A DNA stretch of 38,632 nt, taken from assembly GCA_021779665.1 (NCBI GenBank), contig JAJYAG010000010.1, positions 15,499-54,130 of the forward strand. Direction: 5' to 3'. Of the stretch, positions 1,153-18,980 are shown piece after piece (position 1 is the stretch's first letter; the number at the start of each line of letters is the position of its first letter). Made by a program: the position numbers and the translations under genes. The DNA is from Bacteroidota bacterium. GTDB taxonomy: Bacteria > Bacteroidota > Bacteroidia > Bacteroidales > JAAUTT01. The notes below the pieces were generated by a model. The model saw nothing but the letters and a program-made list of their open reading frames with translations, did no database searches and was not told where the DNA came from.

Positions 1153-3042
1153 TCAGATTTTTTTTAATACAATTTGTTCAGCTTCTTTTGTCACGATCTG
1201 GTTATATAGTTCCCGCAAAATTTCATACTCCTCAGCCAGGTATAATGATTTACCTATACTAAACTTACAGGAAAGTGTAATGAATCTGTTTGCTGAAGAA
1301 ACTGAGTAGGTAAACCGGATGGAATTGTCGGGCGATTTCAATAAAACAGACTTAGGTAGCTCGGCTATAGTGTAACCTTCAGGTATTTCTAGTTTGAGAA
1401 TACGAGAATTGTCGCGTAAATAACCAAAATCTACAGGGTAAGTCCGTTTTTCTGATTTGAAAGGATTTTCAGTTATTTGTTCTGTAAAAAGCGGGTTAAA
1501 GAATATTTTATCGGAAGTGACAACTACATTGTCGTTCATTTCAACATTCATCTTAATTTTTACCGATTTATAAATGCTGTCGAGATTTTCAATATTCGGA
1601 GAGCTGATTTTTATTTCCTTGTGGTCAGCCTGATAGTTCTCTATGTACTTTTCAAATCCCGCAACTTCTTCAATTTCTTCTCTTAAATCGTGTGCTGCAT
1701 AACCTTTGTAGTCTTTTGATAAAATTCCGGTTACTTCGCCGGTTGCATTTATTTTAAGATCCATGAAGGTAGCTTTTGTTGAGGCCATTTGTGGCTTAAG
1801 ACTAAACCAGCGACCTTTATAATATTTTGTTTCGAACATGCGGCCTTCTCCGTTTAAGCATCTGTAGGGGAGTGTGCCCAAAGGCAGAAAAGGATCGGTT
1901 GCATCCATAACGTAATTGCTGGTGTCGATTTTAACGTTGGCTACCACATAATTAAGTTTGTCAAGTGTAGGGTGGGCCGGATGTAACAAGCCATTGCTCC
2001 TGGTGCTCAAAACTACAGGATAAACATCCAGATCGAGTTCCTTAAGCAAAGCAATAAGCATAAGGTTGATTTCAGCAGTATTGCCTGTTTTTTCCTTAAA
2101 TGCCTGCGACATCATTTTTGTAGTGAAAATATAGTTTTGCTCGTTCCATTTCATGTGTTTCTGAATGGCTTCATATGCACATTTCATGCGTTCGTAGGGT
2201 GGGAGGTTTCTGGCTTTTATTTGGTTAACAAGGTCTTTCATGTAACCTGTTAATTTAAGCTTTCCTCCAAAGTCTTCATCCTCCGAAAGGATTTTGTTAA
2301 CATCTTCCCAGTCTTCTGTAAAGCTTTTGTATAATCCGGGGAAGGATACATTCTTTAGTTCAAACTCCATTTTCGAGACGAAGTTATACAGAGAACTGAT
2401 ATATGGTTCCTCCCTGACAGCGCTCACATTTTTGGCATACCAGTGATTAGGTCCTATTGTTCCTATGTTGTCGTATCCATAGATTGATTTGTTAAAACTA
2501 AAGTAAGGCGATTCGGGAATATACAACTCGCTCCAGACAACAGGTATTGGAAACTGGAAATTCCAGGTGCCGGGAAGACCGGGATAAGTGATCCTGAATT
2601 CGATAACAGATCCTACCTTTACATTTGGCATGGTGAATTTTACGTTAAACCTGCCTGTAGCATATTGCTCCGGGAAAATTTGCTCTTTTTCGAGTTTGGT
2701 TGATACAATCTGGTCGTTTACAAGATTATGCGTAAAACCCTTTACCATATAATTATTTTGCGAGATGAAAGAATTGTTAGCCCATTCAAACCCTTCTTTT
2801 TTAAGGATTTTAATTTTTGTGTGCCTTGTAAAGTTAAAGTTGTCCAGACTAAATTCTCCGTTGTCGTAAAGTACTACAGCTACAGCACCTGTATCCTTAT
2901 CGTAAGCTGTCATTTTAAGTTCGTCTAATTCAGGTTTGCCAAATTTGACCTTGGGAGCTTGCTGCCCAATAAGGTGGTTTGATAGTAGCATTAAAATAAA
3001 CGAAAGAATTAAAATTCTTCCTTGGTTAGTAGTCATTTTCAT
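1153..3042 (-). CDS. DUF3857 protein with degenerate transglutaminase-like domain
   Basis: This 629-aa exported protein has a signal peptide (about residues 5-27, ending NHLIGQQ) and the same architecture as its downstream neighbour: DUF3857-like N-terminal half, transglutaminase-like core (about 280-400), C-terminal beta domain. The catalytic pair is absent: the position of the Cys is Thr322 (KTGNTAEINLML) and the position of the His is Tyr365 (KLNYVVANV). The 43-residue spacing equals the Cys324-His367 spacing of the neighbour. An Asp (MDATD) that could be the third residue is retained. It is therefore probably not a transglutaminase or protease and may bind a ligand or partner. Similar Cys-less members are common in Bacteroidota, so this is a subfamily trait rather than a fresh mutation. 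The start at 3042 gives MKMTTN; the ATG at 3036 is an alternative. Confidence 0.85.
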   Translation of the reverse strand: MKMTTNQGRILILSFILMLLSNHLIGQQAPKVKFGKPELDELKMTAYDKDTGAVAVVLYDNGEFSLDNFNFTRHTKIKILKKEGFEWANNSFISQNNYMVKGFTHNLVNDQIVSTKLEKEQIFPEQYATGRFNVKFTMPNVKVGSVIEFRITYPGLPGTWNFQFPIPVVWSELYIPESPYFSFNKSIYGYDNIGTIGPNHWYAKNVSAVREEPYISSLYNFVSKMEFELKNVSFPGLYKSFTEDWEDVNKILSEDEDFGGKLKLTGYMKDLVNQIKARNLPPYERMKCAYEAIQKHMKWNEQNYIFTTKMMSQAFKEKTGNTAEINLMLIALLKELDLDVYPVVLSTRSNGLLHPAHPTLDKLNYVVANVKIDTSNYVMDATDPFLPLGTLPYRCLNGEGRMFETKYYKGRWFSLKPQMASTKATFMDLKINATGEVTGILSKDYKGYAAHDLREEIEEVAGFEKYIENYQADHKEIKISSPNIENLDSIYKSVKIKMNVEMNDNVVVTSDKIFFNPLFTEQITENPFKSEKRTYPVDFGYLRDNSRILKLEIPEGYTIAELPKSVLLKSPDNSIRFTYSVSSANRFITLSCKFSIGKSLYLAEEYEILRELYNQIVTKEAEQIVLKKI

Positions 3043-3595: not shown

Positions 3596-4189
3596 ATGGG
3601 ATTTAACTCAGAAAATGATTTACTGCTTCAAATAAAGCAAGGGAGCATGGATGCTTTTGAAAGGTTATATTTTGATATGCAACCCCGGATGTTTGCTTTT
3701 TCCCGAAAGTTTATCGAAGATAGAGAAGTTGCGCGGGATATCATTCAGGAAATCTTTTTTGAATTTTGGGAAAACCGTTTGGTTACCGATATAAAAACCT
3801 CTGTAAATGCCTATCTTTTTAAAGTTCTTCATAATAAATGCCTCAACCATATTCGCGATAGTAAGGTCAGAGGACGATATGTCAGTTATGTTGACATAAA
3901 ATTAAGGGAAGCTGAACTGCTCTTTTTTGACGAGGATCAGGAGAGTTATAAAAGTATTTTCCTCAAGGAAATTGAGGAAATTTTAAATGCAAGTATTGAA
4001 AATTTACCTGAGGGCTGCCGTGAAGTTTTTATTTTAAGCAGGAATCAGGGATTGTCCAATAAAGAAATTGCCGATCAATTGAATATTTCGGTTCGTACAG
4101 TTGAAAACCAGATTTACAGAGCGCTGAAAATTCTAAAGACCAATTTGAAGGATTACCTGTATTTCATTTCTCTTTTTGTTAAATTTTAA
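3596..4189 (+). CDS. ECF RNA polymerase sigma factor (module A)
   Basis: This 197-aa cytoplasmic protein is an ECF-type sigma-70 factor of the kind that controls Bacteroidota PULs together with a FecR anti-sigma factor. Region 2 is at about residues 20-90 (GSMDAFERLYFDMQPRMFAFSRKF, then DIIQEIFFEFWENR), and region 4 with its helix-turn-helix at about 135-182 (LPEGCREVFILS, then NKEIADQLNISVRTVENQI). The C-terminus ends in a short hydrophobic tail (LYFISLFVKF), a feature shared with the second sigma factor at 13458. The FecR gene follows after 108 bp. Predicted role: drives transcription of the adjacent susCD pair when released by FecR. Target promoter sequences are not known. Confidence 0.93.
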   Translation: MGFNSENDLLLQIKQGSMDAFERLYFDMQPRMFAFSRKFIEDREVARDIIQEIFFEFWENRLVTDIKTSVNAYLFKVLHNKCLNHIRDSKVRGRYVSYVDIKLREAELLFFDEDQESYKSIFLKEIEEILNASIENLPEGCREVFILSRNQGLSNKEIADQLNISVRTVENQIYRALKILKTNLKDYLYFISLFVKF

Positions 4190-4297: not shown

Positions 4298-5296
4298 ATG
4301 GGAGAATCATTGAATAATATTGAACTAATTACTTCGGTACTGCAGGGAGACGCTTCTGAACAGGAGAAACAGGAATTATATGCATGGATGCAGTTGAGCA
4401 AAGAAAATGAAGAAATCTTTTTTGGCTTAAAGGAATTATATGAGGCTGGTAAATGGGAAACATTTAAAAGTGAAGCTAATACGCCACAGCTTTGGAACCA
4501 GTTGAAAGAAAGAATAGAGAATACTCCTGAAATAGAGCTTGAAGCTGAGAATCCAAATCCATATTTACAGTTTTTAAAATATGCTGCCATTTTTTGCATT
4601 GGAATATTTTCTTTCTGGCTTGTAGGTAAGTTTAGTAAGAAAACCGATGAAAATTTAAAAGTCCAGGTAGTTACCGGTATAGGCGAGCGATCGCAGGTTC
4701 TACTGCCCGATGGAACCCGCGTTTGGGTGAACTCATGCAGCTCATTCACTTATTTCAGTAATTATGGTAAGGAAAACCGGAATGTTTTTCTTAAAGGTGA
4801 AGCATATTTTGAGGTTCACAAGGATAAATCTATGCCTTTTATTGTGCATTCATCCGGTTTTCACATCAGGGCGCTGGGTACATCTTTCAACGTTTCTGCC
4901 TACACCGATGATGATGAAGTTTCTGCGGTTTTGCTTGAAGGTAGTATTTGTTTTGAAAACAAGAGCTCGGGAGAGTCTAAAGGTATTTTACCCGGTCAGA
5001 AAATTGCCTATTCAAAGACTACGGCTTGTACCAGGGTGTTGAATGTTAATCCGGAGGTTTATTCGGCTTGGAGCAAGGGAGAAACTCAATTTGAACATTT
5101 AAAGCTCGAAGAAATTATAAAAAGATTGCAACGGACATATAATCTTACAATTATTCTGAAAAATGAAAAAATGAAGGAACTTTACTTTTCGGGAACTTTC
5201 AGAAACTATGAATCGTTTGAGCGCATTCTAAAAGTTATATGTGTAAATACCAGTTTGAACTACAAAATAGTTAAGGATACAGTTTACTTAAAATAG
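4298..5296 (+). CDS. FecR-type anti-sigma factor (module A)
   Basis: This 332-aa inner-membrane regulator has a cytoplasmic N-terminal part that should hold the sigma factor (residues 1-90), one transmembrane helix (about 92-110, FLKYAAIFCIGIFSFWLVG), a periplasmic FecR domain (about 125-220: GERSQVLLPDGTRVWVNS, GEAYFEVHKD, IRALGTSFNVSAY) and a C-terminal DUF4974 domain (about 262-330: EEIIKRLQRTYNLTI, ELYFSGTFRNYESFERIL). In this family the periplasmic part senses the STN domain of the partner SusC transducer. A 9-codon ORF (ATG at 4284, stop at 4313) overlaps the start in another frame, which could lower its translation. It lies between the sigma gene and susC, as is usual for transenvelope signalling PULs. 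Confidence 0.93.
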   Translation: MGESLNNIELITSVLQGDASEQEKQELYAWMQLSKENEEIFFGLKELYEAGKWETFKSEANTPQLWNQLKERIENTPEIELEAENPNPYLQFLKYAAIFCIGIFSFWLVGKFSKKTDENLKVQVVTGIGERSQVLLPDGTRVWVNSCSSFTYFSNYGKENRNVFLKGEAYFEVHKDKSMPFIVHSSGFHIRALGTSFNVSAYTDDDEVSAVLLEGSICFENKSSGESKGILPGQKIAYSKTTACTRVLNVNPEVYSAWSKGETQFEHLKLEEIIKRLQRTYNLTIILKNEKMKELYFSGTFRNYESFERILKVICVNTSLNYKIVKDTVYLK

Positions 5297-5301
5297 AAAT
5301 T

Positions 5302-5389
5302 ACTAATACTAACTTAAAAATATAATGCCTATGAAATAACAAAAGGTTTAAAAACTGAAAGAGCGGAAAAAGGACCAGTTTTCCCGCTC
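5302..5389 (+). promoter_or_regulatory. Conserved susC leader A: mini-ORF plus hairpin
   Basis: This leader contains a block (5302-5336) that closely resembles one in leader B: CTTAAAAATA, a short spacer, then GCCTATGAAAT. The ATG at 5331 opens a two-codon ORF (Met-Lys-stop, ending 5339). A hairpin follows: GAGCGG + AAAA (5361-5370) pairs with TTTT + CCGCTC (5379-5389, one bulged C), loop AGGACCAG. The ATG-to-hairpin distance is 30 nt and ATG-to-susC 127 nt, against 29 and 129 nt in leader B. Function unknown; translation-coupled attenuation or RNA-binding control are possibilities. Confidence 0.5.
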
Positions 5390-5457
5390 AATATTCAGTA
5401 AAACATTAGCTTGTTTGCAATTAACTAACTTTTTATTTTACCAAACCTTGTAAAAGT

Positions 5458-8400
5458 ATGAAAATTTTAAATTTATACGGGTGCTTTATTGCGCTAAAAA
5501 TAAACAAAAAGCTACTGCACATTATGAAAATATCGATGCTACTAATGATCTCTTGCTCGATAACCTTATTTGCGGGCAATACCTACTCTCAAAACGCTTC
5601 AATTTCTCTTGATTTAAAAAACGCCAATATCCGGGATGTATTTAAAGCAATTGAGAAACAGTCGGACTACAGGTTTTTCTATAACGAAAAACAACTCGAC
5701 CTCGACAAGAAGCTGGATGTTCAATCTTCAAACATCCGTCTTGCCGATGTTCTGAACAATATTTTTCAGAATAGTGATATCGCATATCAGGTTGTGGATA
5801 ATTACATTGTAATTGTGTCAATGAAAGCTTACCAGAATGAGCTTTTGGAAAAACAGGCCCAGCAGAAAAAAATATCTGGTATAACCACTGATGCAACTAC
5901 CGGTGAACCACTTCCGGGAGTTAACGTTTTGGTTGAAGGAACAACCATGGGCGTAATAACCGGCGATGATGGAAGATATTCCATTGATGTGCCGACAAAC
6001 GCTACCACATTGGTTTTTTCCTATATAGGTTATGTAACTGAAAAAATAGCCATTGTTGGCCAAACAACTATTGATGTTAAAATGGTTCAGGATGTTCAAA
6101 GCCTGGAAGAAATTGTGGTTGTTGGTTATGGAACTCAAAAACGTACCAATGTTGTTGGAGCTGTTGCTTCTGTTAGTGGCGATAAGCTTCAGGGCATTCC
6201 TGCTGTTAACGTTTCAAATGCAATCTCTGGTCTGGTTCCCGGAGCAACAGTTGTACAGCAAACCGGCGAACCCGGACAAATGAGCCCCCGAATTTTGATT
6301 CGAGGCAGAAGTACCATTAATACTGATAACAGCCGTATGTCGAACCGGGCAGAAGTTGCTCCGCTTGTTATTATCGATGGTGTTCCGGGTCGTTCCATGG
6401 ATGAAATTGACCCGAATGATGTTGAAAGCCTTTCGGTATTGAAAGATGCTTCAGCAGCCATTTATGGTGCGCAGGCCGCAAATGGTGTTATCCTTATTAA
6501 AACTAAAACAGGTAAAGAAGGTAAGCCACGGTTAAACTATCAGTTTTATCAGGGAACTATGACGCCCACTATGGTTCCAGAGGTTACCAATGCAGCAGAA
6601 TATGCAACCATGCTTTCAGAATACCAGGTTGCCCAGGGTAAAGCCCGCAGATACAGCGACGCTGATATCGAACTCTTTAAAAACGGAAAAGATCCTTGGG
6701 AACATCCTAATACCGACTGGTACGGAGATTTAATCCGCAAATGGACTTCAACAAGCCGTCACAATATATCTTTGGATGGTGGGTCAAAAGGTATGAGGTA
6801 CTATGTATCCATGGGTCATAAGGTTGATAATTCCTTTTACAAAGCCAACTCTACCAAGTACAAACAATATAACGTAAGGGCTAAACTCGATTTCCCGATT
6901 AACAAATGGTTAAAAACAGGTGTTGAACTTGCAGGATTCTTTAATAACAGGATTTATCCGTATAAGAGTGCCGATGCCATTGTTGGTCAGTCAACACGTC
7001 TGGTTCCGACTAACTGGTCGTATTGGCCCACCGGTGAACCCGGCCCCGATATTGAGTATGGTGATAACCCTGTTGAAACCTCCACGCTGAGTGCTGGAAA
7101 GAACGATCAGAAAACTTACAGGTTGTTAAGTTCGTTTAATGCAACCATAGATGTTCCTTTTATTAAAGGTCTCTCATTCAATGGTAGCTATAGTTACGAC
7201 TTAACCAACTATTACAATAAAGCTTTTTATCAGCCCTGGACACTGTATTATCCAAACTGGAGCCAGGCAACCAGGGGAGCTGATGGTTATATAACAGCTA
7301 TGCCTTTAACACCAACATTGAGAGGTCTTTCATCTCCCGAAAATAACGAAAGGTACGAAAGAACCTACAATCAGAACATGCTTGTTAATGCAAATTATAC
7401 CAGAACTTTAGGAAATCATAATATTTCGTTGTTTGCCGGATTTGAGCAGTATACCAACGATTTCAACTCAATGTATGCTTATCGTAAGTACTACATTTCG
7501 CCAATTATCCAAACATTGGATGCTGGTAACTCAAAAGATCAGAATATTACAGGTTCACAATCGGTTTATGCCCGTAAATCTTACATAGGTCGTGCTACTT
7601 ATGATTATGCAGGCAAATACCTGGCAGAAGTTGTATTCAGGGCCGATGGTTCTCTGAAGTTTCCTCCTTCGAAACGCTGGGGTTATTTTCCTGGTTTAAT
7701 GTTAGGATGGAGAGCTTCCGAAGAAGATTTCTGGAAAAATAACATAAACTTTGTCAATTACTTTAAGCTTAGAGCTTCTTTTGGTATGATGGGTATGGAC
7801 CCGACCGCTCCTTTCCAGTTCATGGATAAATATGGAATTTCAACAGGTATGACATTCGGAACAGGTGGCGCAATTGAAACAGCAGTTGGTCCTCCATCGG
7901 TTGCTAATCCTAACCTTACATGGGAAACTCAAAAGACTTATAACGTTGGTTTCGATTCCAAGTTTATGAATGATCTTTTCCATTTGAATGCTGAATTATT
8001 CTATAACAGAAGAGAAGATATTCAGACCCCCAGAGATGCTTCCGTTCCCAACTTCACTGGTTTAACTTTGCCTGCAGAAAATATTGGTATTGTGGATAAT
8101 AAAGGTATTGAAATTGATGCAGGTTTCCACAAATCGCTCAACAAAGATCTTCGCATTGATGTAACCGTTAACTACAGTTACAACCATAACGAAATTGTTG
8201 AAATAGACGAACCGAAGAAAGCTCAGCCATGGCAGCAACTTACCGGTCATTCTTACGGTGCATGGTTAATGTACGATGCAATAGGTATCTTTAAGGATCA
8301 GGCTCAGGTTGATGCTACTCCTGCAAAAGTAACAGGTACCAAGCCAGGCGACGTAATTTTCCGCGACGTAAACAATGATGGTAAAATTGATGGCGATGAC

Positions 8401-13430: not shown

Positions 13431-13457
13431 AATCCTGAATAAATCAGGAGTCAATTG

Positions 13458-14042
13458 ATGGATTATTCTGATAGTGAGATTTATGCCGGAGTTCGTAATG
13501 GGGATCTAGCAGCTTTTGAGCAGCTTTATAAGCAATATTATACCTTTTTCCGGCTAGTAGCATTTCATATCACCCATAATAACGACGATGCTGAAGAAGT
13601 TGTTTCGGAGGTGTTTGTTAAGCTCTGGAACCAAAGAAACGAAATTGAGATTGCAACTTCTGTTAAAGCTTATATTACCAGAAGTGTACAAAATGCAGCA
13701 ATCAATTTTGTAAAGAAGCAGACTGCAGCAAAAAAAGTGACCAACAGCATTGACGAATCCGATTACTGTTTACTGGCCTGGGATAGTGATTATCCGCTCG
13801 GACAGCTTTATGAAAAGGATGTGATTGAAATTCTGAAAAAAAACATCCGATTACTGCCCGAGGGCTGCCGCAAAGTTTACCTGATGAGCCGAACCCGGGA
13901 ATTTACCTACAACGACATTGCCGAAAAACTTGGAATATCCGTAAACACTGTAAAAATGCAGATGAAAATTGCCCTTTCCCGTCTGAGGGAAGCTCTGGTT
14001 GATTATATCTCGATCTTTCTTATATACATTGGTTTATCCTAA
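13458..14042 (+). CDS. ECF RNA polymerase sigma factor (module B)
   Basis: This 194-aa ECF sigma factor is the partner of the FecR encoded 74 bp downstream. Region 2 is at about 12-85 (GDLAAFEQLYKQYYTFFRLVAF, DAEEVVSEVFVKLWNQRNEI), region 4 at about 132-182 (LPEGCRKVYLMSRTREFTYNDIAEKLGISVNTVKMQMKIALSRL, given here as consecutive motifs LPEGCRKVYL, NDIAEKLGIS and NTVKMQMKIA). It ends in a hydrophobic tail (YISIFLIYIGLS). The ATG at 13458 was preferred to the TTG at 13455: an AGGAG stands six bases upstream, one of the few Shine-Dalgarno-like sites in the window. It resembles the module A sigma factor in layout but is clearly diverged, so it probably has its own promoter specificity. Confidence 0.93.
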   Translation: MDYSDSEIYAGVRNGDLAAFEQLYKQYYTFFRLVAFHITHNNDDAEEVVSEVFVKLWNQRNEIEIATSVKAYITRSVQNAAINFVKKQTAAKKVTNSIDESDYCLLAWDSDYPLGQLYEKDVIEILKKNIRLLPEGCRKVYLMSRTREFTYNDIAEKLGISVNTVKMQMKIALSRLREALVDYISIFLIYIGLS

Positions 14043-14116: not shown

Positions 14117-15253
14117 ATGCAAACCCACGAGAATTTTAACTTTTACGATTCGCTGATTATCAAACATCTGAAAGAGGAACTCGCTCCAACAGAGAAAGCA
14201 GAGCTCATTCAGTGGGTGAACAGCGATAAATCGCACAAGCGTTATTTCGATGAGTTTTGTGAAATCTGGATTGCCTCACTTGCTGTTGCCGAGGATAATG
14301 AAGAAGTCAGCATGGCCGCCTTTCATAAGTTCAGGAAAGAAATTGGCGTAAGCGACAGATTTTCTTATCCCTATAAAATAACTTTGAATGTACTTAAGAA
14401 ATATGCTGCTGTTTTTATAATCGCCTGCGCGTTGAGTGGCTTTCTCTTTTACAATATTGGCAAAAACCAGCTTACTCCAGGTCTTATGGCTAAAAATGAG
14501 CTCGTAGTTCCTTTTGGCTCGAAGGCAGAATTCACACTGGCTGATGGAACCAAAGTAACCCTGAATGCTGGCAGCAAGCTGAAATATTCGGGTTCGTATG
14601 GAATAACCGACAGAACGCTGCAACTCGAAGGTGAAGCATATTTCAAAGTTGCAAAAAACCGGCAGCTTCCTTTCATTGTTAAAACATCACATGTCGATGT
14701 CAGAGCCCTTGGTACTGAATTTAATGTAAAGGCATATCCCGGCGAAGAAACAATTGAAACTACCCTTGTGGAAGGGTCAGTTGATATTGACCGGAATAAC
14801 ACAAAGACCCCTGCAGGGTTAACTGTTTTAAAACCTAACCAAAAATTCACATACTATATAAATAAGCCTGCAATTAAAGAGGCTGAAGTAAAAAAAGAAG
14901 TACTCAAAGCTGCTGAAAAGCATCTAGCTTTAAAGCACGATACAGCTATCGTTACCAGGTTGAACGATGTCGCACCCGTTATTTCCTGGAAAGAGAATAA
15001 GTGGATTATCGAAAACCAGAATCTGCAGCAACTGGCCATCGAAATGGAGCGAAAATTCGATGTTAAAATTAATTTTAATTCAGAACGTCTTAAAAATTTC
15101 CGCTTCTCAGGAACTTTGCTAAACGAACCTATTGAGCAGGTGCTTATGGTAATGGGGGTTTCGGCACCAATCACCTATAAAATTAAGGGCAAGGAAGTTT
15201 TTCTGATAGAGGGCGAAGATTTCGATAAAATGTACAAGGATTTATATCAATAA
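14117..15253 (+). CDS. FecR-type anti-sigma factor (module B)
   Basis: This 378-aa inner-membrane anti-sigma factor has an N-terminal sigma-binding part (1-90), a transmembrane helix (about 95-113, KYAAVFIIACALSGFLFYN), a FecR domain (about 128-225: PFGSKAEFTLADGTKVTLNAG, GEAYFKVAKN, VRALGTEFNVKAY) and a C-terminal DUF4974 domain (about 305-372: LQQLAIEMERKFDVKINF, FRFSGTLLNEPIEQVL). It is longer than the module A protein because of a Lys/Glu-rich linker (about 245-295). It lies immediately before the second susC leader and should sense that transducer. Confidence 0.93.
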   Translation: MQTHENFNFYDSLIIKHLKEELAPTEKAELIQWVNSDKSHKRYFDEFCEIWIASLAVAEDNEEVSMAAFHKFRKEIGVSDRFSYPYKITLNVLKKYAAVFIIACALSGFLFYNIGKNQLTPGLMAKNELVVPFGSKAEFTLADGTKVTLNAGSKLKYSGSYGITDRTLQLEGEAYFKVAKNRQLPFIVKTSHVDVRALGTEFNVKAYPGEETIETTLVEGSVDIDRNNTKTPAGLTVLKPNQKFTYYINKPAIKEAEVKKEVLKAAEKHLALKHDTAIVTRLNDVAPVISWKENKWIIENQNLQQLAIEMERKFDVKINFNSERLKNFRFSGTLLNEPIEQVLMVMGVSAPITYKIKGKEVFLIEGEDFDKMYKDLYQ

Positions 15254-15263
15254 TAGTAACGAA

Positions 15264-15351
15264 ACTAATATACTAACAACTTAAAAATAAAAGCCTATGA
15301 AATTCTGACGTGTAAAAAAATAAAAGCGCAGGATGGACGAACACCCCGCGC
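15264..15351 (+). promoter_or_regulatory. Conserved susC leader B: mini-ORF plus hairpin
   Basis: A block at 15264-15303 matches leader A (ACTAATA, CTTAAAAATA, GCCTATGAAAT). The ATG at 15297 opens a three-codon ORF (Met-Lys-Phe-stop, ending 15308). The hairpin GCGC-a-GG (15326-15332) pairs with CC-c-GCGC (15345-15351) around a 12-nt loop that contains GGACGA; the leader A loop contains GGACCA. A naive gene call would start susC at the ATG at 15333, which lies inside this hairpin loop. Confidence 0.5.
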
Positions 15352-15425
15352 AATTCTTATTCAATGCACCAATGTTGCTTTTACCAGAAGCACACTGGAT
15401 TAATCATTTAATACATTACAAAACT

Positions 15426-18400
15426 ATGAAAAAAACGAATACTAATGTTATTCCATTGTCTCGTTATGGAATAAAAAAACTACTAACAATCATGAAACTA
15501 TCTTTTATAATAGTTTTTGCATGCGCTCTTCAGGTTAGTGCCACAGTTTATTCTCAAAGTTCAATTAATCTGAATGTAAGAGGTCAAAGTCTGAAAGAAG
15601 TTCTGAAAATGATCGAACAAAACAGCGATTTCAGATTTTTCTACAGCGACAATATGACGCTCATTAATGAGCCTGTATCTATAAAGGCTGAAGATAAGAA
15701 TGTTGTGGAAGTGCTGGACGATTTATTCTCCAATTCCCAGTTAACTTATAAAATTTTTGATAATAATCTCATTGTTGTTGCTCCCAAGCGGAGCGCTCAG
15801 CAGCAAAAGGTTTCAGGAACCATTACCGATGCGGTTACCGGCGAACCTATTGTAGGGGCCAATATTATTGTTGAAGGAACAACCATAGGTGTTGTTTCCG
15901 ATATCGACGGCCGCTTCTCTATAGATTTGCCTGGTCCGGAATCGGCAATTGTGGTATCTTTCCTTGGATACCTTTCGGAGAAAGTTATACCTGCCGGACA
16001 AACAAATCTTTCCATTAAGTTATCGCCTGACATCACAAACCTCGAAGAAGTTGTTGTAATTGGTTACGGTACTGCAAAGAAGAGCGATGTTACAGGAGCA
16101 TTAACCCGAGTAACCGAAAAAACTATCAAAGAAAAACCTGTACAGAACGCCATCCAGGCCATGCAGGGAAAAGCTGCAGGTGTGGATATTGGCACAAACG
16201 TTCGTCCCGGCGAAGTTGCTTCGGTTACCATCCGCGGAACACGCTCTATATCTGCTTCCAACTCTCCTCTGTATGTTGTCGACGGAATTATTCTCATGGG
16301 AAGTATCAACGACATCAACCCAAACGATATCAGCGGAATGGAAATTCTTAAAGATGCATCGGCAACTGCTATTTATGGTTCGCGCGGTGCAAACGGTGTT
16401 GTGTTAATCACTACTAAAAAGGGCAGCAAAGGTCAGCTCTCGGTAAATTATGATGCAACAACTTCTTTGGAAACCATTCATTCGTTAACCGATTGGGCAA
16501 GTGCAGGCGAAGCTATCGACCGCTTGCGTCTGGCCGAAATCAATGGTGGAACTTATAAATTGGGCTCAGCATCGCTGCTTTATCCCGATCCTCAGGCTGA
16601 TATCAATAAATTTGGCAATTCTGACCCTACTACAATATCAGCAATTCGCAGAGCTTACCAGTGGAACGATCCCGAGGCTTTCACTTCTCCAATCATGCGC
16701 GATGCAACCGCTGAAGAAATTGCAAAAGGCTGGCCAGCTCAGGTTCCTGTTTACAATTCGGGTAATATTCCAACTACCGATTGGGCTGATCTTTTAACCC
16801 AAACCGGAGTAACTCAGAACCATCAGTTAGCTGTTTCGGCCGGTAACGAAACATCGCGTCTCTACACTTCTTTTGGCTATTACAACAATAATGGTACCCA
16901 GAAGAATCAGGATTACCGCAGGTTTACCATTAAAATAAACGGCGATATTAATCCAACCAAATGGTTAATGGTGGGAACATCCTTAAATGCTGCCTTCACA
17001 AACCAAAGATACGGAACAATCAACCGTTCGGGTAGTGCTACAGGTCCTCAGGATGCTTATGGTATGGCACTTAGCCAGTATCGTATGGCCAGACCTTACG
17101 ACGAAAACGGCGAAATGATTTTGTATCCTGGAAATAACAAGGCGGCTCCCACATGGAACCCTATCATTGATATTGATAATACCGAAGACGATCGCAGGGC
17201 AATGAACTTCCAGGCTAACCTGTATTCGGAAGTGAAATTTACCTCATGGTTGAAGTACCGCATGAACTTTGGTTCCGGATTCCGCTATGGCCGTAACGGC
17301 GCATGGCAGGGTTCGCAGTCTACACTCAGAAGAACTGCTAATCCCCAAACATCGGCTGCCAGCTATGGTACTTCCGAGAACTTCCAGTACATGCTCGAAA
17401 ACCTTTTGTACTTTGATAAAACGTTAGGTAATCATTCATTTGGAGCTACTCTCTTACAGTCGGTTCAGAGCTACCGTTCTGAAAGTTCTAGTATCAATTC
17501 TTCGAAAATTATTTATGACATTTCGAAGTGGTACAACGTTGCTGCCAACCTCAATGGTAATCCCGATTCGTATGGAACAGGATTTACTGAGAATTCGCTG
17601 ATGTCGTACATGGTACGTTTAAATTACTCGTTGTTAAACCGCTATTTGTTTACCGCCACTGGTCGTTACGATGGAGCCTCGGTACTTGCACCGGGTAACA
17701 AGTGGGATTTCTTCCCGTCGTTTGCTGTAGCATGGAAAATGCAGGAAGAGTCGTTTATGAAGTCAATTTCATGGATCAACGAACTGAAACTCCGCGTAGG
17801 TTATGGTGTTGTAGGTAATTCAGCGGTGGGAGCTTATTCAACTTCCGGCCCTCTTTCGCAGTATAAATATGCTTTTGGCGATATTCCTGCCATAGGTTAT
17901 AATCCTTATAACATGCCAAACCCTGAACTGCAGTGGGAAAAAACAGCCCAATCGAATGTGGGTATTGATTTCGCAGTGCTTTCGGGTCGTATCAACGGTA
18001 CTGTTGAGGTTTATGAGTCGAACACTACCAATATTCTTATGGACCGCAGCATTCCGTCAATTGCCGGATACCCTTTTATTACCGGAAATATTGGTAAAAT
18101 GCGGAACCGCGGACTTGAAATTACCTTAAATACAATCAATGTTAAAGGTAAAAACTTCCAGTGGAACACCGATTTTAACTGGAGTGCCAACCACGAAGAA
18201 ATTGTTGAACTTGTTAACGGCAAGGAAGACATGAAAGGTAATAACTGGTTTATAGGACAGCCCTTGCAGGTTTTCCGTACTTACGAAGTTGATGGTTTAT
18301 GGCAGAATAACGAGGCCGACCTTGCTGAAATTGCTTTATGGAAGGCCAATGGATATAACTTTGAACCGGGTCAGTACAAACCTGTTGAACAGGGAACTCC

Positions 18401-18980
18401 CAATTATAAGCTCGAAGATGACGATAAAGTAATCAGGGGTACTGTTCGCCCGAAATGGGTTGCCGGTATGACTAACAATTTCAATTACAGAAATTTTGAT
18501 TTGTCATTTTTTGCTTATGCACGTATAGGCCAGAAATATTTCTCTTCGCTCATTCCTGGCGGATCAGGTGGAGGAAGCTATGTGGGATATGTACGTTCGG
18601 TAGATGCTTCAGATTTCTGGTCGCCCTCCAATGCAGGTGGCAAATATCCCCAGCCTACAACAAACCCCAAAGCTTCGAATGCCGATGTTAACAGGGCTAT
18701 GTTTATCAACGACGGTTCTTTTGTGGCTATTCGTAATATTTCCTTGTCGTATACTGTTCCTTCCAAATTCCTTGAAAGATTCAAAGTGAAAAGAGTACAG
18801 GTATATACCCAGGTACTTAATCCTTTCCTCTTTGGTGGTGAAGTTGTAAAAGCAGGTATAAATCCTGACGATACAAATGGCTGGACCAGTGTAAACTCGG
18901 TTGGCGATCCTACTGGCGGTACCAATAATAACACAATGATTATCCGCAGTTATGTATTTGGTATCAGAGTAGGTTTATAA
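15426..18980 (+). CDS. SusC-like TonB-dependent transducer (module B)
   Basis: This 1184-aa outer-membrane transporter has a signal peptide (about 1-44, cleavage near ATVYSQ), STN domain (46-118: LKEVLKMIEQNSDFRFFYSD), carboxypeptidase-regulatory-like domain (128-205), plug (from about 208: EEVVVIGYGTAKKSDVTGA; LKDASATAIYGSRGANGV) and a barrel ending SYVFGIRVGL. The start was placed at 15426 (MKKTNTNVIPL): this gives a normal exported N-terminus and the same distance from the leader ATG as in module A, while an in-frame ATG at 15333 would add 31 residues encoded by leader RNA. It should import the RG-I fragments produced by the enzymes downstream and signal to the FecR at 14117. The Asp-rich loop of the first SusC is degenerate here (EDDDKVIRG). 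Confidence 0.95.
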   Translation: MKKTNTNVIPLSRYGIKKLLTIMKLSFIIVFACALQVSATVYSQSSINLNVRGQSLKEVLKMIEQNSDFRFFYSDNMTLINEPVSIKAEDKNVVEVLDDLFSNSQLTYKIFDNNLIVVAPKRSAQQQKVSGTITDAVTGEPIVGANIIVEGTTIGVVSDIDGRFSIDLPGPESAIVVSFLGYLSEKVIPAGQTNLSIKLSPDITNLEEVVVIGYGTAKKSDVTGALTRVTEKTIKEKPVQNAIQAMQGKAAGVDIGTNVRPGEVASVTIRGTRSISASNSPLYVVDGIILMGSINDINPNDISGMEILKDASATAIYGSRGANGVVLITTKKGSKGQLSVNYDATTSLETIHSLTDWASAGEAIDRLRLAEINGGTYKLGSASLLYPDPQADINKFGNSDPTTISAIRRAYQWNDPEAFTSPIMRDATAEEIAKGWPAQVPVYNSGNIPTTDWADLLTQTGVTQNHQLAVSAGNETSRLYTSFGYYNNNGTQKNQDYRRFTIKINGDINPTKWLMVGTSLNAAFTNQRYGTINRSGSATGPQDAYGMALSQYRMARPYDENGEMILYPGNNKAAPTWNPIIDIDNTEDDRRAMNFQANLYSEVKFTSWLKYRMNFGSGFRYGRNGAWQGSQSTLRRTANPQTSAASYGTSENFQYMLENLLYFDKTLGNHSFGATLLQSVQSYRSESSSINSSKIIYDISKWYNVAANLNGNPDSYGTGFTENSLMSYMVRLNYSLLNRYLFTATGRYDGASVLAPGNKWDFFPSFAVAWKMQEESFMKSISWINELKLRVGYGVVGNSAVGAYSTSGPLSQYKYAFGDIPAIGYNPYNMPNPELQWEKTAQSNVGIDFAVLSGRINGTVEVYESNTTNILMDRSIPSIAGYPFITGNIGKMRNRGLEITLNTINVKGKNFQWNTDFNWSANHEEIVELVNGKEDMKGNNWFIGQPLQVFRTYEVDGLWQNNEADLAEIALWKANGYNFEPGQYKPVEQGTPNYKLEDDDKVIRGTVRPKWVAGMTNNFNYRNFDLSFFAYARIGQKYFSSLIPGGSGGGSYVGYVRSVDASDFWSPSNAGGKYPQPTTNPKASNADVNRAMFINDGSFVAIRNISLSYTVPSKFLERFKVKRVQVYTQVLNPFLFGGEVVKAGINPDDTNGWTSVNSVGDPTGGTNNNTMIIRSYVFGIRVGL

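Follow-up and report, generated by a model that had tools for sequence, protein, structure and literature searches.

Gene order and leader features of the two loci

The window, that is, the whole stretch of 38,632 nucleotides that was analysed, carries two loci, A and B. In both, an ECF sigma factor, a FecR-type anti-sigma factor, an STN-type susC and a susD follow one another in the same order. Both susC genes contain STN, CarbopepD_reg_2 and Plug domains, and a SusD gene lies next. The features of the two loci are as follows, the ends of the predicted antisense RNAs having been placed by the -7 box and the terminator tail.

3596..4189, plus strand: ECF sigma factor, locus A (domain search)
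4298..5296, plus strand: FecR-type anti-sigma factor, locus A (domain search)
5327..5333, plus strand: GCCTATG motif of leader A, containing the mini-ORF start codon
5331..5339, plus strand: mini-ORF A, ATG AAA TAA (Met-Lys-stop)
5361..5389, minus strand: stem-loop A, read as intrinsic terminator of an antisense RNA; 11 minus-strand pairs, tail TTTCAGTTTT
5350..5446, minus strand: predicted antisense RNA A, ~97 nt, 5′ end at 5446
5451..5458, minus strand: putative antisense -7 box A, TACTTTTA, 5/6 of TAnnTTTG, overlapping the susC A start codon
5458..8901, plus strand: STN-type susC A (domain search)
13455..14042, plus strand: ECF sigma factor, locus B (domain search)
14117..15253, plus strand: FecR-type anti-sigma factor, locus B (domain search)
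15293..15299, plus strand: GCCTATG motif of leader B
15297..15308, plus strand: mini-ORF B, ATG AAA TTC TGA (Met-Lys-Phe-stop)
15326..15351, minus strand: stem-loop B, read as intrinsic terminator of an antisense RNA; 10 pairs, 7 of them G-C, tail TTTTATTTTT
15313..15414, minus strand: predicted antisense RNA B, ~102 nt, 5′ end at 15414
15419..15426, minus strand: putative antisense -7 box B, TAGTTTTG, exact TAnnTTTG, overlapping the susC B start codon
15426..18980, plus strand: STN-type susC B (domain search; protein tested 15426-18977)

As the first-pass annotation had described, mini-ORF, hairpin and susC succeed one another in both leaders at the coordinates listed. Counted from the mini-ORF ATG, the stem lies at 30 nt and the susC ATG (5458) at 127 nt in leader A; the corresponding distances in leader B are 29 nt and 129 nt (15426). 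The same annotation took the ATG-to-stem spacing to be fixed and the loop GGAC(C/G)A to be shared, and both turned out to be limited to leaders A and B: the spacing ranges from 18 to 46 nt in 29 leaders of the same genome, and the consensus around the loop of 60 aligned stems is UGC...AACA.

Most STN-type susC genes, in the window (5458-5526 and 15426-15494) as in the same-genome loci, carry a second in-frame ATG about 66 nt after the first. Judged by eye, a normal signal peptide begins at this second ATG, so that a start at the first would place about 22 extra residues in front of it. A 629-codon ORF on the minus strand of the window (1153-3042) had no Pfam match at E up to 0.001.

Distribution of the leader element

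The window's genome has 33 STN matches, and the arrangement of mini-ORF, stem and susC was found in 29 of 30 loci examined (all but L017), the mini-ORF start having been chosen by eye in these 30. Together with the rule-based counts given below, this puts the arrangement beyond chance. TIGR04056 finds 56 SusC genes in this genome, 26 of which are among the STN loci. When the upstream stretches of the 30 others were searched with a covariance model of the stem (R1, built from 60 stems of the window's genus and some other families), 5 matched at E up to 0.01; 4 of these sit behind a FecR gene and the fifth, L031, has a duplicated leader. Seven FecR-linked susC genes have no STN locus: four match the model at E up to 0.01 (L042, L045, L049, L056) and three do not (L037, L041, L053). 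L037, one of the 24 other susC genes used as a comparison below, has a FecR gene upstream and shows no element by eye, and L035, L044 and L055, which lack FecR, look similar by eye with a model E above 0.01. In L031 and L233 (G000:C139) the susC leader and the first susC codons are tandemly duplicated, the upstream copy entering a broken N-terminus.

Searched in the window alone, R1 finds stem A with 19.4 bits (E 0.013) and stem B with 30.9 bits (E 1.8e-5). Across the window's genome there are 18 matches at E below 0.01, all before a susC or, on C139, before a duplicated susC start fragment; 16 of them belong to the training set and two (C294:3267 and C139:3757) lie outside it. Leader A is the weaker case: its box agrees at 5/6 positions, and the leader, though part of the training set, is not among the genome-wide matches at E up to 1.

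For a wider view we used a named set, the best 80 FecR loci nearest to the query among the matches listed, taken regardless of leader. In 69 of them the gap is 60 nt or more, or the start is unknown. R1 matches 42 of these 69 at E up to 0.01 and 49 at E up to 1, leaving 20 without a match at that threshold. The best 32 matches are all on the plus strand; in the 69 loci, those at E up to 1 start anywhere from 7 nt upstream to 299 nt downstream of the fecR stop. Genera with matches at E up to 0.01 include Bacteroides, Parabacteroides, Flavobacterium, Flavivirga, Arenibacter, Muricauda, Pedobacter, Cyclobacterium, Belliella and Marinifilum. At nine loci FecR overlaps the next gene or ends within 25 nt of it (L161, L164, L174, L175, L176, L178, L179, L235, L239); there is no room for a leader and the element is absent.

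Genome-wide searches of 12 named genomes gave 81 matches at E up to 0.05, with at least one in 11 genomes. Thirty of the matches were examined as loci, and in 25 of these an ORF of at least 150 codons lies within 350 nt. Pfam assigns all 25 ORFs to the SusC type (all have CarbopepD_reg_2 and Plug, 23 have STN), and at least 4 of the 25 loci were already in the named set. The other five comprise three that seem unrelated (L339, L341, L349) and two that seem to be remnants. In L327 (Bacteroides faecis) leader and hairpin are followed by a susC-like start that is soon broken, with no 150-codon ORF in the stretch examined; in L347 (a Chitinophagaceae MAG) an orphan hairpin and a susC-like start were seen by eye with no susC gene behind. 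Outside the class, 21 FecR loci gave no leader match at E up to 1, the sole match (L111 at 2277) lying inside the next gene. A class-wide search matched 22/60 genomes at E up to 0.01, though the element is not present in every one of them; R1 is unspecific at weak scores, and many loci of that search resemble ordinary terminators with no gene behind, some matching on both strands.

Leader statistics were taken from the named set and from a set of 101 leaders, drawn from the window's genome and 14 chosen genomes. Membership of the latter was decided by folding and, in part, by eye; neither was used for the named set. The 101-leader set lacks loci that had no hairpin in range. A hand-made list removed 26 loci for a misassigned stem, a missing leader gap or the lack of a usable hairpin, and 9 stem positions were placed by hand.

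The stem-loop pairs better on the minus strand

In the 60-stem alignment (720 stem cells) the exceptions to pairing on the plus strand are 95 A·C against 7 G·U, and in the independent named set (45 rows found by the model) they are 49 against 1. Since A·C on the plus strand is a G·U wobble on the minus strand, pairing is more complete on the latter: among the stem cells of the 45 named rows, 95.7% are paired there, against 86.8% on the plus strand. At least 6 of the 8 nt before the G/C stem are A in 87/100 leaders and 43/45 named loci, an A-run that would give the minus-strand transcript a U-run behind its hairpin. On the sense side, a T-run of 6 or more behind the stem occurs in 3/100 and 0/45, so that the sense intrinsic terminator expected after the mini-ORF of a leader-peptide attenuator was not found in these sets. 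Moreover, a general terminator scan lists both window stems as minus-strand terminator-like sites (31 sites against 17.7 in shuffles), with stem-loop B second of the 31.

The first-pass annotation had proposed structural selection on the hairpin, to be sought in other susC leaders. Covariation is indeed found there, with a score of 0.449 against 0.171 in shuffled alignments and at most 0.173 in slid controls; the spacing that was to accompany it is merely loosely kept. Two-sided change is seen at 12/12 stem pairs, a count reached in 39/500 shuffles. Folding served to select the 60 stems, which builds in part of their pairing but not the direction taken by the exceptions. Our own first reading, like that of the annotation, was a sense-strand RNA element, with a protein or ribosome model, and it was overturned by the A·C excess. 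Given that excess, the U-run and the terminator scan, a minus-strand RNA terminator is the best reading of the hairpin, in preference to a structure of the susC mRNA.

The window had no match at gathering score among the Rfam 15 covariance models. In a search of 8 leader loci at E up to 1, Rfam gave solely two Acido-Lenti-1 RNA matches (RF01687), at 151-196 and 309-354 of L240 (Parabacteroides acidifaciens), at the far end of that locus and off its leader. The family is listed for Acidobacteria and Lentisphaerae (PMC2864571). Median z of the folding energy is -1.89 in 30 same-genome leaders and -1.85 in 66 named ones, against -0.49 in the 24 other susC and -0.53 in 6 FecR-linked susC without an STN locus. 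By itself, folding energy is a poor witness for the leader element.

A candidate antisense promoter at the susC start codon

The motif CAAAnnTA is present in exact form at -7 of the susC start in 63/101 leaders and in 27/43 named loci with a start and a model match at E up to 0.05, against 1/24 other susC of the window's genome (L035), a count that stays at 1/24 when any in-frame ATG may serve as start. On the opposite strand the motif reads TAnnTTTG, the -7 box of the Bacteroidota primary sigma factor (PMC7366714), and it is taken as an antisense promoter signal. A TAnnTTTG promoter is reported for 52% of the cis-antisense RNAs of B. thetaiotaomicron (PMC7366714). At least 5/6 of the box is present in 89/101 leaders. 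Among the remaining named loci the exact box occurs in 7/23 with a gap and no model match at E up to 0.05, and in 1/11 with a gap under 60 nt. Misassigned susC starts exist (L247 and L305 among the named loci), so the box counts are too low.

Setting the box at -12 to -5 of the antisense start, the position reported for a similar box (PMC9723704), puts the predicted start at -12 of susC. A C at this position, giving a G start, is found in 60/101 leaders, 19/43 named loci and 2/24 other susC. A -33 box is hardly visible (CAAA at +16..+24 in 13/101 leaders and 1/24 others). From predicted start to terminator tail, measured by sequence, the antisense RNA would have a median length of 92 nt in the 101 leaders (5-95% range 69-115) and of 81 nt in the named loci. 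On the sense strand, TAnnTTTG was found in 0/101 leaders in the 90 nt upstream of the stem and in 1/101 between stem and susC, below the shuffled mean of 3.25 in each stretch, and a primary-sigma promoter on that strand was rejected on this count.

A short reading frame on the sense strand

The mini-ORF lies outside the predicted antisense RNA, and the antisense gene therefore explains nothing about it. Between -60 and -12 from the stem, the 101 leaders contain 140 ATG against 60 GAT, 48 GTA and 36 AGT. At least one triplet whose frame closes before the stem is present in 88 leaders for ATG, and in 30, 23 and 19 for the other three. Of the 140 ATGs, 132 are closed before the stem in their own frame, against 80 and 63 in the other two frames. 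The same holds outside the GCCTATG motif, where 87/95 ATGs close in frame against 59 and 48. The 45 named leaders give the same picture, with 58 ATG against 33 GAT, 31 GTA and 27 AGT, and a closed ATG in 37/45 against 16, 15 and 13. Here 53/58 ATGs close in frame (31 and 34 in the other frames), as do 38/43 of those outside GCCTATG (22 and 28). Further triplets, given as total and closed before the stem, are ATA (190, 139) and ATT (144, 101), whose composition is not matched to ATG, ATC (42, 27), TTG (43, 34), GTG (17, 14) and CTG (36, 20). AUG is depleted near starts in Bacteroidota generally (PMC6847099), against which the mini-ORF ATGs stand out.

Eight named leaders have no closed ATG. In six of these (L252, L259, L296, L309, L310, L291) the fecR stop itself lies 2-18 nt from the stem; L316 and L246 have neither. 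Mini-ORFs overlapping the fecR end were kept in the 101-leader set and, for named loci, excluded from the statistics on 118 mini-ORFs that follow. The number of codons before the stop is 1 in 9 (ATG-stop), 2 in 42, 3 in 18, 4 in 20 and more in 29. From the end of the stop to the stem the median distance is 17 nt, and the ATG-to-stem spacing has a median of 30 nt (5-95% range about 21-49). In the window's genome the mini-ORFs lie 101-165 nt upstream of susC, and all 29 of the same-genome leaders close theirs before the stem.

The reading frame is kept in 6/6 pairs of same-genome and congeneric loci with 72-85% identity of the SusC N-terminus, and bases differ in 5 of them. For example, L002 and L128 read ATG AAC TCT ACC TGA and ATG AAC TCA ACT TAA, L049 and L072 read ATG ACA TAA and ATG AGT TGA, and L025 and L135 read ATG AGA TAA and ATG AAG AAA AAC TAA. 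The ATG excess and the in-frame closure thus bear out the earlier proposal that the mini-ORF is a real feature: at the level of sequence it is under selection, and it is probably translated. That its start is better than that of susC was not borne out. Position -3 holds C in 69/118 mini-ORFs and A in 30/118; in susC it holds A in 56/101 and C in 2/101, with A at -6 in 86/101. A at -3 and -6 are positive determinants of initiation in Flavobacterium johnsoniae (PMC6847099). With so poor a start context, initiation at the mini-ORF may be weak.

Counted post hoc, the last residue of the mini-peptide is Thr in 18 and Pro in 10 of 87 unique ORFs (expected 8.3% and 2.6%; p 3e-4 and 1e-4), and internal residues also lean to T/S/P/G (52/199). 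As a lead only, the Thr/Pro excess before the stop could reflect slow termination.

Proposed mechanism and alternative readings

The strand of the structure, the box, the terminator and the selection on the mini-ORF can be read from the DNA itself. We propose, with a probability of roughly 0.8, that the leader is a sense/antisense pair, in which a minus-strand RNA gene lies over the susC leader and the mini-ORF stands on the sense strand at the border of the duplex. From this we infer antisense expression, repression of susC and a role for a parked ribosome. Minus-strand transcription would start 12 nt upstream of the susC start codon, which the antisense -7 box overlaps, and would end at the hairpin and U-run, yielding an RNA of ~80-100 nt antisense to the leader. 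Made while the operon is uninduced, this RNA would pair with the leader to within 12 nt of the start codon and lower susC output. Each RNA would repress its own susC, as DonS does in Bacteroides fragilis, and so keep an ECF/FecR-controlled susCD operon quiet until induction. Stem sequences differ among paralogous loci, as expected if each RNA serves its own target alone. A suggestion of the first-pass annotation, that a regulator acts through the leader, survives to the extent that a small RNA is probably involved; the hairpin as an element of the susC mRNA does not.

A ribosome on the mini-ORF (usually 1-8 codons), or at the end of fecR, would terminate at the edge of the antisense duplex. 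It might keep the leader ribosome-free so that the antisense RNA can pair, or it might protect the upstream mRNA. Alternatively, the mini-ORF might be the step that the antisense RNA blocks, like the leader ORFs of plasmid R1 and hok/Sok. The data favour none of these roles over another. A bolder extension holds that, phylum-wide, a translated start-stop element of ECF/FecR-controlled susC mRNAs (AUG, usually 0-7 codons, stop) parks a ribosome that decides antisense silencing, beyond the susC start alone. This we consider rather unlikely; if true, it would mean control by minimal ORFs at the scale of a phylum, the Bacteroidota.

The strongest competitor grants the antisense gene and makes the mini-ORF a mere trap for ribosomes re-initiating after fecR, which keeps them out of the antisense target region, its own translation being unregulated. 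The six of eight named loci without a closed mini-ORF whose fecR stop takes its place 2-18 nt before the stem are what such a trap would give. It accounts neither for the GCCTATG motif nor for the many loci whose fecR stops 40-300 nt upstream, and we regard it as a possibility to be taken seriously, against which we would still lean.

Much less probable is that GCCTATG is a DNA element, for example an ECF sigma factor promoter box for the sense transcript, with the mini-ORF as its by-product. The motif occurs within 60 nt before the stem in 45/101 leaders and 14/45 named loci and is strongly conserved where present, and 11/17 of the GCCTATGNNNTAA sites in the genome lie in such leaders. However, the reversed control pattern occurs 16 times, so that the total of 17 shows no excess. 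No second conserved block was found upstream at a fixed distance, where there is merely a weak A-rich stretch at -15 to -12, and on this ground GCCTATG was rejected as a promoter. Moreover, many paralogous ECF sigma factors would need one common box, mini-ORF length varies by whole codons (1, 2, 3, 4 and more), and the ATGs outside the motif close in frame as well (87/95 against 59 and 48).

We give a slightly poorer chance still to the hairpin as a leader structure of the susC mRNA that a protein, a small RNA or a ribosome halted at the mini-ORF would sense. A conserved hairpin position, a covarying stem and a mini-ORF that ends before it in 29/29 same-genome leaders would suit this; the excess of A·C over G·U on the plus strand (95 to 7 and 49 to 1) speaks against it, and the A-run and the box at the susC start are left unexplained. 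That the hairpin terminates or protects the 3′ end of a sense fecI-fecR transcript is very improbable, for although it lies close behind fecR in a number of loci, the sense-side U-run is hardly present (3/100 and 0/45).

Relation to known systems

The sense/antisense reading places the predicted RNA beside DonS, a member of a family of 78-128 nt cis-antisense RNAs opposite susC homologues (PMC7366714). DonS lowers the expression of its PUL by a mechanism termed unknown (PMC11697453). Thirty-two PUL-associated antisense RNAs have been counted in B. thetaiotaomicron (PMC10994844), and 15 PULs with such RNAs are cited for B. fragilis (PMC9723704). The RNA predicted here has the same place, strand and length: the minus-strand box and terminator point to an RNA opposite the susC 5′ end, the predicted lengths are 97 (A) and 102 nt (B), the primary-sigma promoter box is exact in B and 5/6 in A, and the predicted intrinsic terminator supplies a defined 3′ end. 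We therefore read it as being of the DonS type, a type recognised by these signals rather than by kinship with the DonS sequence. The family has been described in Bacteroides PULs, whereas the gene here, a prediction from sequence, extends to genera outside Bacteroides and has a sense mini-ORF beside it, of which the accessible parts of PMC7366714, PMC10994844 and PMC11697453 make no mention for DonS.

RNA control of SusC translation near the start codon is also known from the FopS/GibS sRNAs with RbpB in Bacteroides thetaiotaomicron (PMC11697453). The FopS sRNAs target susC genes elsewhere in the genome, whereas the RNA predicted here lies on the strand opposite its own target. In plasmid R1 (tap/CopA) and hok-mok/Sok, a short leader ORF stands beside the target of an antisense RNA on the same mRNA. 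Those ORFs are longer and translationally coupled to the gene; the mini-ORFs here usually have 1-8 codons and, in the same genome, lie 101-165 nt upstream of susC. Eukaryotic start-stop uORFs consist of an AUG followed by a stop, a form taken by 9/118 of our mini-ORFs, though in a different kingdom and with a likeness in sequence alone.

The hairpin of susC leaders thus belongs to a known kind. As far as our literature searches go, what is new is the spread beyond Bacteroides, the antisense box overlapping the susC start codon, and the mini-ORF. These three features are unmentioned in the accessible parts of PMC7366714, PMC10994844, PMC11697453, PMC12596196, PMC9723704, PMC6847099 and PMC2864571; the original DonS paper, most subscription papers and the supplements lay outside the search. 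The signals suggest that susC antisense genes could be annotated by sequence, from a box at -7, a C at -12 and a terminator ~60-110 nt upstream. As the architecture occurs, by sequence, in genera well beyond Bacteroides, any carrier with RNA-seq can serve to test the antisense prediction. Moreover, a conserved mini-ORF at the duplex border would offer a direct handle on the mechanism of DonS repression, and so short a reading frame beside an antisense gene could help to show how switches of this kind work.
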